Positions 3,530 through 6,167 of a stretch of 64,000 bases of DNA are shown here, in pieces; position 1 is the first letter of the stretch; each line of letters begins with the position of its first letter. The stretch covers positions 744,001 to 808,000 of the forward strand of contig NZ_LZRP01000001.1 of the NCBI RefSeq assembly GCF_001678665.1. Reading direction: 5' to 3'. The notes beneath the pieces are model-generated. The model worked only from the letters and a program-made list of their open reading frames with translations, was not told where the DNA came from and searched no databases. The position numbers and the translations under genes were made by a program. This DNA comes from Erythrobacter sp. QSSC1-22B. GTDB lineage: Bacteria > Pseudomonadota > Alphaproteobacteria > Sphingomonadales > Sphingomonadaceae.

Positions 3530-4320
3530 CCACGACCAGGGGCAATCGCTGCGCGGGCAAGCTCGCGCTGGTGACCGGTGCGGCGCAGGGCCTCGGCCGC
3601 GCGCATGCGATGCGGCTGGCCGAAGAAGGCGCGCGGGTGCTGTGCACCGATGTCAACGGCGAGGGAGCGCTGGAAACCGCCACGTTGATCGACGCGCAAC
3701 TGGGCGCAGGTACGGCTTTTGCCATCGCCCATGACGTTACCGACCCGCTGGCATGGGAAGCCGCGGTTCAATCGGCGCGCGACAATCTGGGTGGGCTCAA
3801 TGTGCTGGTCAACAACGCCGGGATCGGTGTGGGCGGCAATATCGAGGCTTGCGATTTCGACGACTGGAAGCGTTGCTTCTCGGTCAATGTCGATTCGATC
3901 TTCCATGGCTGCCAGAAGGCCCTGCCGCTGATGCGCGACCATGCGCCGGGATCGATCGTCAATATTTCCAGCATCGCCGGGCTCATCGCCAGCGACACGA
4001 TGCCGGCCTACAATGCGTCCAAGGCGGCGGTGTGGATGCTGTCCAAATCGATCGCGCTGCATTGCGCCAAGAACCGGATGAACATCCGCTGCAATTCGGT
4101 CCATCCGACCTTCGTCGACACCCCGATCCTCGATGGGACCGCGCGCCAGCACAATCTCGAGAAAGGCGTGCTGCTTGAAAAGCTGGCCCGCCAAATCCCG
4201 CTCAAGGTCGTCGGCGAACCCAATGATATCGCGAATGCGGTGGTCTATCTCGCCAGCGACGAGAGCAAGTTCATGACCGGCGCGGAGATCAAGCTCGACG
4301 GCGGCATCTCGGCCATGTGA
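3526..4320 (+). CDS. Short-chain dehydrogenase/reductase (SDR, classical)
   Basis: NAD(P)-dependent oxidoreductase of 264 residues. It has the cofactor motif TGAAQGLG (about residues 17-24), NNAG (about 95-98), the active-site Ser in NISS, and YNASK as the catalytic Tyr/Lys. The C-terminal segment DGGISAM ends the fold as in classical SDRs. The acidic residue in CTDVN after the second strand suggests NAD rather than NADP preference. It resembles 3-beta/17-beta-hydroxysteroid or cyclopentanol dehydrogenases, but the substrate is not assignable. GGAGAGAG precedes the ATG at 3526, which overlaps the Nudix stop. A longer frame reading upstream to 3166 is an artefact overlapping the Nudix gene. 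Confidence 0.93.
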   Translation: MTTTRGNRCAGKLALVTGAAQGLGRAHAMRLAEEGARVLCTDVNGEGALETATLIDAQLGAGTAFAIAHDVTDPLAWEAAVQSARDNLGGLNVLVNNAGIGVGGNIEACDFDDWKRCFSVNVDSIFHGCQKALPLMRDHAPGSIVNISSIAGLIASDTMPAYNASKAAVWMLSKSIALHCAKNRMNIRCNSVHPTFVDTPILDGTARQHNLEKGVLLEKLARQIPLKVVGEPNDIANAVVYLASDESKFMTGAEIKLDGGISAM

Positions 4321-4352
4321 ACTGGTGAGGGTGAATTGGTTGCGTGACATGC

Positions 4353-4380
4353 GAGAGGCGCGGATCGCTCCGCGCCTCTC
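4353..4380. terminator. Strong hairpin between convergent genes
   Basis: Perfect 12-bp stem: GAGAGGCGCGGA (4353-4364) pairs with TCCGCGCCTCTC (4369-4380) around a TCGC loop. It lies between the SDR stop and the oppositely oriented PspC gene, whose stop codon it overlaps by two bases. Neither side has a convincing U-tract, so it may act as a 3'-end stabiliser as much as an intrinsic terminator. Confidence 0.65.
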
Positions 4381-4594
4381 AATCCGCGATCAGCCCGATC
4401 GCGAGGTAGATCAGGAGCGGGCTGCCGAAGCCGACCAGCGTGGCGATCACGAAGCCTGCCCGCACCAGCGTGGCGTCGATCCCGAAGTAATTGGCAATCC
4501 CGGCGCAGACCCCCATCAGCTTGCCGCGCTCGCGATCGAGACGGAAGCTCTTGGACGGTGGGCCGCCCGGGTCGGAGTGGCGCAGATCGCTCAT
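4379..4594 (-). CDS. PspC-domain membrane protein
   Basis: The 71-residue product is almost entirely a PspC domain: a basic lead (SFRLDRERGKLMGVCAG), an amphipathic segment (IANYFGIDATLVR) and one transmembrane helix (about residues 45-68). In the phage-shock response PspC senses inner-membrane damage with PspB and PspA. No PspA or PspB is encoded next to this gene. The ATG overlaps the stop of the upstream 37-residue peptide gene (ATGA), so it is probably translated from the same transcript under the sigma-54 promoter at 4918-4934. Confidence 0.9.
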   Translation of the reverse strand: MSDLRHSDPGGPPSKSFRLDRERGKLMGVCAGIANYFGIDATLVRAGFVIATLVGFGSPLLIYLAIGLIAD

Positions 4595-4704
4595 GCGATC
4601 AGACCACCGGGCGATGCGGGGACGATGGCCATGGCCAGGAATATCCCCGAGAGTGCGAGCGAGAAGCCGGCGGCGAAGAGCTTGTTGCTATCGAAATTTA
4701 ACAT
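4591..4704 (-). CDS. 37-residue single-helix membrane peptide (second copy)
   Basis: Short gene with a clear ribosome-binding site (GGAAGGAC) before its ATG and a four-base overlap with the PspC start. The peptide begins MLNFDSNKLF, has one hydrophobic helix (about residues 9-30) and ends AIVPASPGGLIA. It matches the upstream peptide at 19 of 37 positions, including all of AIVPASP, so the two are paralogues made by tandem duplication. No named family is recognised. Position and membrane character suggest it works with the PspC protein. Confidence 0.8.
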   Translation of the reverse strand: MLNFDSNKLFAAGFSLALSGIFLAMAIVPASPGGLIA

Positions 4705-4747
4705 GATGTCCTTCCAGTTTGGATGAGAGTTGAGCGCCAAGCGCAGA

Positions 4748-4861
4748 TCAGACGATGAAGCCGGTCGGGCTGGCGGGGACGATCGCGGCGGCCATGACGA
4801 TGGCCGAGATGGCGAGAGCGGCGACGGCGGCGAAGGCGTTGTTGATGGTGCTGAAAGACAT
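4748..4861 (-). CDS. 37-residue single-helix membrane peptide (first copy)
   Basis: First gene of the sigma-54-type operon. The product begins MSFSTINNAF, has a single Ala-rich hydrophobic helix (about residues 9-28) and ends AIVPASPTGFIV. AAAGGATC precedes the ATG at 4861. It has exactly the same length as its downstream paralogue, with a 43-base gap between them. A frame extending upstream to 5125 is rejected because it would span the promoter. Function unknown; a role in inner-membrane stress is inferred from the linked PspC gene. Confidence 0.78.
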   Translation of the reverse strand: MSFSTINNAFAAVAALAISAIVMAAAIVPASPTGFIV

Positions 4862-4917
4862 GGTGTTGATCCTTTTATTTCCCTGAACCCCGGCCCTTCC
4901 GGGGACACCAGGTAGTT

Positions 4918-4934
4918 TGCAACCCCCGTGCCAA
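4918..4934 (-). promoter_or_regulatory. Sigma-54 (RpoN) promoter, exact consensus match
   Basis: On the minus strand the sequence reads TTGGCACGGGGGTTGCA. This matches the sigma-54 consensus TGGCACG-N4-TTGC at every fixed position, with correct spacing between the -24 GG and -12 GC. Transcription would begin near 4906 and give a leader of about 45 bases before the first 37-residue peptide gene. Classical psp operons are sigma-54 dependent, which fits the PspC gene at the end of this unit. Confidence 0.85.
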
Positions 4935-4942
4935 ACTGAAGG

Positions 4943-4962
4943 AATGGCCGAATTCAGCCATT
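4943..4962. promoter_or_regulatory. Dyad immediately upstream of the sigma-54 promoter
   Basis: AATGGCCGAATTCAGCCATT is a near-perfect 20-base palindrome (arms AATGGC/GCCATT, core GAATTC). It is centred about 46 bases upstream of the predicted start of transcription. It could bind an activator, a repressor or a bending protein; nothing in the window identifies the protein. Confidence 0.45.
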
Positions 4963-5006
4963 GTGAAGCCGCCCACACCTGAACCGACCGTTCATCGATC
5001 CGAAAG

Positions 5007-5025
5007 GTTGGCGTATTTTCCCAAC
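5007..5025. promoter_or_regulatory. Candidate enhancer dyad for the sigma-54 operon
   Basis: GTTGG and CCAAC are separated by nine bases and centred about 110 bases upstream of the predicted sigma-54 start. That is the distance at which PspF-type enhancer-binding proteins usually sit. The site also lies within the recF upstream region. The assignment rests on position only. Confidence 0.35.
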
Positions 5026-5087
5026 TGTTCGATTTGACGTTTCGCGCTGGCCTCGCTCCGAGGGCACGGCTAACGCTCGACACGCTC

Positions 5088-6167
5088 ATGGCGCTCGACC
5101 GCATCTCGCTTTCCGACTTCCGCAATCATGCCCAAACCACGCTCGAAGGCACCGCGCGGATGAACCTGCTCGTCGGCGCCAATGGCGCGGGCAAGACCAA
5201 TGTGCTCGAAGCGCTGTCGCTGCTTTCGCCCGGTCGCGGGATGCGCCGCGCCGCGCTGGTCGACATGGTCCGCGGCGGGGCTACGGATGGCTTCGCGGTC
5301 GGGGCGAGCCTGGTCGGAGCCGATGAGCCGGTGCGGTTGGGCACCTACACTCAGGGCGCGCACCCCGGGCGGCGCAAAGTCAGGGTCAACAGCGCCGAAA
5401 GCTCTGCAGTCGCGCTGGGCGAATGGCTTGCGATCGGCTGGCTGACCCCGGCGATGGACGGGCTGTTCACCGGCGCCGCGCAGGATCGGCGGCGCTATCT
5501 CGACCGGCTGGCGCTGGCGATCGACCCCATCCACGCGCGCCACGCCGGACGCTACGAAGCCGCCCTGCGCGAGCGCAACCGCCTGCTCTCCGACGACCGC
5601 GAGCCTGACCCAAGCTGGCTCGACGCGATCGAAGCGCAACTCGCAGAGCACGGCACCGCGCTGGGCGAAGGGCGCGCAGCGCTGATCGACGCGCTGATGG
5701 CGGAGATCGTGGCGCAGCCCGAAGCTCCCTTCCCGCGCCCCGCGTTGAGCTATGCTCCGGGTGGACCGCTCGGCTACGAAGGCCTGTCGCAGGCGCTCCA
5801 CGACAACCGCCGCCGCGACCGCGCCGCGCAGCGCACGCTCGACGGGCCGCATCGCGACGATCTCGACGTGCTCTATGCCGCGCGGCGGATGCCCGCGGCG
5901 CAATGCTCGACCGGCGAGCAGAAGGCGTTGCTGCTGGCGATAACTATAGCGCACGCCGCGCTTTCGGCGAAGGGGCGCGCCTCGCTGCTGCTGCTCGACG
6001 AGGTCGCCGCGCATCTCGATCCCGACCGGCGAGCGGCGCTGTTCGAGCGGCTGCGCGCGGGCGGCGCGCAGGTTTGGATCACCGGGACCGAACTCGCCCC
6101 ATTCGAAACGATCGCCAGTGAGGCTGCGGTCTGGAATGTCGCCGATGGGGCTGTGCAGCGCCGCTAG
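5088..6167 (+). CDS. recF: DNA replication and repair protein RecF
   Basis: SMC-like ATPase that loads RecA at single-strand gaps together with RecO and RecR. The 359-residue product begins MALDRISLSDFRNH, the RecF signature start. It has Walker A GANGAGKT at residues 30-37, an ABC-type signature CSTGEQKALLLAI, and Walker B SLLLLDEVAAHLD near the C-terminus. The ATG at 5088 is preferred over an upstream in-frame codon at 5034 by family length and N-terminus. It is not next to dnaA/dnaN/gyrB, as is common in alphaproteobacteria. No strong ribosome-binding site is seen. Confidence 0.95.
   Translation: MALDRISLSDFRNHAQTTLEGTARMNLLVGANGAGKTNVLEALSLLSPGRGMRRAALVDMVRGGATDGFAVGASLVGADEPVRLGTYTQGAHPGRRKVRVNSAESSAVALGEWLAIGWLTPAMDGLFTGAAQDRRRYLDRLALAIDPIHARHAGRYEAALRERNRLLSDDREPDPSWLDAIEAQLAEHGTALGEGRAALIDALMAEIVAQPEAPFPRPALSYAPGGPLGYEGLSQALHDNRRRDRAAQRTLDGPHRDDLDVLYAARRMPAAQCSTGEQKALLLAITIAHAALSAKGRASLLLLDEVAAHLDPDRRAALFERLRAGGAQVWITGTELAPFETIASEAAVWNVADGAVQRR

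Follow-up and report, generated by a model that had tools for sequence, protein, structure and literature searches.

A probable satellite PspF-sigma-54 operon encoding predicted membrane micropeptides and a minimal PspC beside recF in the Sphingomonadaceae

The window, a stretch of 64,000 nucleotides from Erythrobacter sp. QSSC1-22B, carries on its minus strand a locus that is best read, from comparison of sequences, as a second, satellite PspF-sigma-54 operon of the phage shock (Psp) regulon, fixed beside recF in the family Sphingomonadaceae; a probability of about 0.6 was assigned to this reading. From 5026 to 4379 the locus consists of an enhancer-like dyad, a palindrome, a sigma-54 box, a hairpin leader, two 37-codon open reading frames (ORFs) and a 71-codon PspC gene. 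Most PspF-type promoters examined in the family start with a membrane micropeptide, some of them without PspA or PspC, and this is the new observation made here. The predicted promoter and enhancer, their spacing, the conservation of the peptides and the order of the operon are established by comparison between genomes. An initial annotation of the same DNA had proposed a Psp-linked operon under sigma-54 and PspF-type control; comparison of promoter, enhancer and spacing supported this, and regulation of the satellite operon by PspF and sigma-54 is considered very probable.

The promoter TTGGCACGGGGGTTGCA (4918..4934, minus strand) was assigned by exact match and conservation; the string TGGCACGGGGGTTGCA, at 4933-4918, is exact, as annotated initially, and is the sole match in the window. 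Transcription is expected to start near 4907, and a stem-loop, CCCCGGAAGGGCCGGGG (4888..4904, minus strand; assigned from folding z across leaders), lies close to the predicted mRNA 5' end. Micropeptide 1 (37 aa, 4748..4861, minus strand, stop included), a single hydrophobic helix by reading of the ORF, and micropeptide 2 (37 aa, 4591..4704, minus strand, stop included) had been described as paralogous single-helix peptides followed by a 71-residue PspC. Both peptides were confirmed, with 19 of 37 residues identical in an ungapped comparison, and so was the PspC at 4594-4379. The stop codon of micropeptide 2 overlaps the start of pspC' (4379..4594, minus strand) as ATGA. The product of pspC' is a minimal PspC-domain protein of 71 aa (Pfam PF04024, 62.3 bits, cut-off 25), which falls below the NCBIfam PspC equivalog cut-offs (TIGR02978, 56.6, cut-off 104; NF007973, 35.9, cut-off 136) because it consists of the PspC domain only. 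The divergent neighbour, recF (5088..6167, plus strand), serves here as context only. It is divergent from the satellite operon in 47/49 loci of the family and 26/27 loci of the genus, and the satellite loci are therefore taken as one ancestral locus. In a public database the satellite peptide P0001 (43 aa) is labelled 'recombination protein F', apparently from the neighbouring recF. Two genes elsewhere in the window have between them, at 2870-2975, a long but imperfect inverted repeat, TCATTGCGAGCGGCGAAGC ... GCTTCGCTACACTCGCAATGA, which resembles a dispersed palindromic element.

A complete pspF-pspABC locus (L001), comprising pspF, a sigma-54 promoter, pspA, pspB and pspC, is present elsewhere in the genome. 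The initial statement that PspA and PspB are absent thus holds at the satellite locus only and fails genome-wide, and the idea that the micro-proteins take their place was abandoned. Judged as a pspABC operon, with pspA and pspB within the operon, the satellite does not qualify, the genes being in another locus. Given the psp locus elsewhere and a PspF-type enhancer here, the operon is therefore read as a satellite and not as a substitute psp operon. A PspA match was found in all 30 of the family genomes with the best PspC matches, and was close in 29; a PspC match of some kind was found in 111/119 genomes of the family and in all 41 genomes of the genus searched. Among 80 PspC loci named by organism, a promoter with an enhancer score >6 was found in 29 and not, by that scan, in 51, of which some are perhaps at a cut contig or concern the PspC of the pspA operon. 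The L001 locus resembles the satellite in promoter class, enhancer, spacing, a micropeptide as first product and a PspC downstream, and differs in having PspA and PspB. Its pspA operon opens with a small ORF for a membrane micropeptide of 50 aa, and a small hydrophobic ORF follows the box in 29/29 pspA loci read. By profile comparison this leader peptide has no detectable kinship to the satellite peptides; a common origin of satellite and pspA-leader peptides was unsupported (probability 1.5%).

Conservation of the promoter in related genomes, named at the outset as a check, was borne out: among the best 50 PspC loci of the family the box was in place in 49, and all 49 have at least one small hydrophobic ORF (one to four) between the box and PspC. 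Peptides were counted in 76 parsed loci (49 of the family and 27 of the genus), leaving out L051, where PspC lies next to pspA with no separate promoter, and L097, where no promoter was found and the contig ends near. One peptide was found in 27 loci, two in 44, three in four and four in one; these are lower bounds, because the ORF finder missed a GTG-started first peptide in L022. Across the loci of the genus and five additional ones from the first family set, pN/pS was calculated for equal-length sequence pairs that had six or more differences and a pS <0.72. It was 0.50 for peptide 1 (292 pairs), 0.43 for peptide 2 (144 pairs) and 0.36 for PspC (176 pairs), the pairs being non-independent and partly saturated. 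Changes favour synonymous sites, and both the peptides and PspC are under purifying selection.

Such selection weighs against the peptides being leader ORFs only, with translation that couples or paces pspC' and a sequence that is nearly irrelevant. The 4-base ATGA overlap of the last peptide stop with the pspC start, found in 68/76 loci, and the fast drift of the peptide sequences would suit a leader, but the aliphatic-Ala C-terminus is also found where the peptide overlaps no start codon, and seven PspF-type operons in six genomes (L153, L154, L156, L287, L288, L313 and L316) have neither PspA nor PspC in the stretch read. These were searched by tblastn with PspA, PspC' and the PspC of the psp locus, with 1.3 to 5 kb covered per locus. 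The peptides therefore cannot be only leaders for pspC', and the leader explanation is judged quite unlikely. In L154, two 36-aa peptides are followed by a ruvC-like gene on the opposite strand; in L153, two peptides are followed by a convergent crotonase-like gene; and L287 and L288, both from a single genome, carry peptide arrays that are nearly identical. Four other candidates for peptide-only operons were ruled out by tblastn, which found PspC at L283, L302 and L311 and PspA at L157.

The last residue of 117 distinct satellite peptides is Ala in 94, Val in 13, Ile in 8 and Leu in 2. Ala also ends 60/63 first peptides of the set selected by promoter pattern (described below) and 25/25 aligned pspA leaders; the alignments comprise 60/117 distinct peptides (A1) and 25/29 leaders (A2), the other four leaders also being Ala-ended by inspection. 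Since the aliphatic-Ala tail also occurs in peptides without overlap onto the next start codon, the ATGA overlap does not fully account for it. Tails of this uncharged aliphatic-Ala type look like those of substrates of tail-specific proteases, and the genome encodes a member of the Prc family (314 bits, cut-off 218.6). Of 119 distinct peptides (117 in the tail count, since three start sites were left untrimmed in the charge count), 102 have a Lys or Arg between residues 2 and 16, none has one among its final 20 residues, and 13 have an Asp or Glu there. Micropeptide 1 of the window has no Lys or Arg, and so is among the peptides lacking an N-terminal positive charge.

Their size and single hydrophobic helix would also fit stress-induced membrane depolarisers that slow growth, in the manner of small stress proteins or type I toxins, and E. 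coli YohP is reported to reduce the proton motive force while increasing PspA and PspC (PMC12719787). However, the role ascribed to the Psp response is to maintain the proton motive force (PMC3068692, in excerpt), and the helices are Ala/Ser-rich, with neither Lys nor Arg among the final 20 residues, so that depolarisation as the function of these peptides appears improbable. No model of Pfam or NCBIfam matches either peptide of the window, and their relatives are likewise without a match in Pfam. In keeping with the initial description of the module as new, no account of these peptides was found among open-licence PMC papers by title or start of abstract, and the passages retrieved with chosen terms from two recent surveys of Psp systems (PMC11237479, PMC9239133) contain none. 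A profile of the satellite peptides matched 37 genomes of the family and, marginally, three outside it, among 147 genomes of the order; matches are few because the sequences diverge so fast. With a profile of the pspA leaders, strong matches were obtained in 3/289 genomes, all in the family, and four marginal ones outside it.

The PspF-type upstream activating sequence predicted at 5003..5026 (minus strand) was identified with a 24-base enhancer matrix trained only on the pspA promoters of 29 family genomes, where all 29 training sites sit 92-94 bases before TGGCAC. When the matrix was applied to the 49 satellites, 43 had their best site at -92 to -94 and 6 at another position, and 42/49 scored above the 99% level of simple base shuffles. 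In the window, the best of about 128,000 positions was 5026-5003 on the minus strand (score 15.5; next place in the window 10.9), 93 bp before TGGCAC and thus at the pspA spacing. In two stretches of E. coli DNA, the top two of 18,912 positions were upstream of pspA (18.3) and pspG (13.2), at 103 and 70 bases from their promoters and not at 93; both promoters are reported to carry PspF enhancers in the available part of the source (PMC3709507). The inverted repeat noted at about -110 as the site of an enhancer-binding protein is identified with this PspF-type site, because the matrix ranks the window site first at the pspA spacing and finds the E. coli psp regions. Binding of PspF at 5003-5026 is inferred from these comparisons. 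No such site was found at the other sigma-54-box loci of the genome tested (L003, L004, L006 and L008). The genome encodes RpoN and PspF (462.6 bits, cut-off 443.55), as well as five further PspF-like activators, all below the PspF cut-off. One of these might drive the promoter instead, but site and -93 spacing are as at pspA promoters and the matrix recovers the psp regions of E. coli, which makes an enhancer-binding protein other than PspF very unlikely.

The 20-base dyad reported at about -46 was found at 4943-4962 (minus strand, 90% complementary) and is common in satellites and weaker at pspA. At the palindrome AATGGCNGAATTCNGCCATT near this position, satellites have a mean of 5.6/10 paired positions (median over centres 2.4) and pspA promoters 4.2 (median over centres 2.5). 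A GC-rich hairpin begins some four bases downstream of the predicted start of transcription and may stabilise the mRNA. The folding z of the leader has a mean of -2.35 in the 49 satellites (37 below -1.5) versus 0.14 in 29 pspA leaders (3 below -1.5). MAFFT and RNAalifold gave no consensus structure for the satellite 5' leaders, so the hairpin is a result of single-sequence folding; Rfam gave no RNA match at 4300-5150.

By itself the promoter string is weak evidence, because match counts are near the chance rate: shuffled windows gave 1.67 matches at <=1 mismatch against the one hit in the window, and the 3.34-Mb genome has 7 exact matches against 4 for a reversed control pattern. Among the other exact matches, one is the pspA promoter, one precedes a glnB/glnK-like gene, three share a contig and lie close to flagellar-like genes, and one falls within a TonB-receptor-like gene (apart from the pspA promoter, gene identities were read from the sequence). 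It is conservation, and not the promoter match alone, that carries weight for the locus being real, and with order, spacing and selection conserved over 76 parsed loci a chance origin of ORFs and promoter can be set aside.

Loci were also chosen independently of the peptides, by searching 196 genomes of the order for the pattern CCCAA-N72-76-TGGCAC-N6-TGC. The pattern was found in 75/113 genomes of the family versus 12/83 other genomes of the order (reversed control, 16 and 8). Of 108 family matches, 80 were analysed and 28 tallied as loci already covered; these loci come from related genomes. An enhancer score >=6 was obtained for 67/80, and in 60 of these 67 promoters the first ORF encodes a micropeptide, defined as a hydrophobic product of 25-62 aa whose ATG has a ribosome site and lies 35-105 bases downstream of the box. 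The 13 low-score matches have a peptide in 3 and none in 10, and control positions drawn at random from the opposite strand in the first 60 loci passed the peptide test in 0.4%. Among loci read earlier, 57/57 distinct pattern matches with an enhancer score >=6 passed, which is no independent test because many were found through PspC or PspA. The seven failures comprise L282 and L318, with first ORFs of 107 and 86 aa that have a signal-peptide-like start and are possible further members of the regulon; L286, with a GTG-started hydrophobic ORF of 66 aa; L300, with a 55-aa ORF just below the hydrophobicity limit; L321, where a PspC-like ORF is first; L330, where pspA is first; and L388, where the first gene was not identified. 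In L347, a locus of the family, a 162-aa ORF precedes pspA. Beyond the family, distribution refers to sampled genomes and not to an exhaustive set. There, five of eight boxed alphaproteobacterial pspF loci (L336, L344, L345, L346 and L352) have a different ORF of 46-66 aa before pspA, with a hydrophobic stretch at the extreme C-terminus in four.

In the satellite-operon reading, envelope stress would free PspF from PspA, and PspF bound at 5003-5026 would activate sigma-54 RNA polymerase at 4918-4934. The mRNA would encode two single-span inner-membrane micropeptides and, via the start-stop overlap, the minimal PspC. An N-in/C-out topology is suggested by the distribution of charge; window peptide 1 lacks the positive charge near the N-terminus. 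The peptides, inferred to be inner-membrane effectors of the Psp response, would be accessory components of the inner membrane that act through their dosage, at one to four copies, most probably by pairing as helices with PspC or by anchoring PspA; a role as PspC or PspA partners is put at somewhat less than even odds. The near-constant hydrophobic-Ala tail could let a tail-specific protease clear the peptides, a step that we regard as doubtful.

The Psp response is among the textbook systems for envelope stress, and how it works at the membrane is still a matter of debate. LiaI of Bacillus subtilis (LiaI/LiaH), a small membrane protein induced by stress, anchors a homologue of PspA; it is larger than these peptides and not known to be sigma-54 controlled, and anchoring by the satellite peptides is a proposal. 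The satellite is comparable, in arrangement, to pspG of E. coli, which makes a small membrane protein. Like the satellite, pspG is a second PspF-sigma-54 unit away from pspA, with one enhancer in the part of the description available (PMC3709507), and its upstream region scores with the family-trained matrix; it differs in having 80 codons (annotated at 4262840-4263082), with no pspC and no annotated micropeptide there. E. coli YohP is likewise a membrane protein of very small size with links to stress and to the Psp response, but in the excerpted report it is an inducer of that response (PMC12719787), whereas the satellite peptides are predicted outputs of PspF.

More broadly, the usual immediate product of PspF promoters in the Sphingomonadaceae may be a membrane micropeptide and not PspA. 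These peptides would form a fast-diverging, copy-number-amplified class that can act even where its operon has neither PspA nor PspC and whose removal goes through the hydrophobic-Ala tail at the C-terminus. They would be an arm of the phage shock response, made of peptides, that is so far undescribed. This proposal is tentative, and the odds lean against it in its full form. If it is true, most PspF promoters throughout a bacterial family give rise to unannotated membrane micropeptides, sometimes without PspA or PspC, which suggests that surveys of annotated proteins would miss members of the regulon this small. Enhancer and promoter spacing provide a simple finder for such peptides, which would offer a compact, testable handle on the output of PspF at the membrane.
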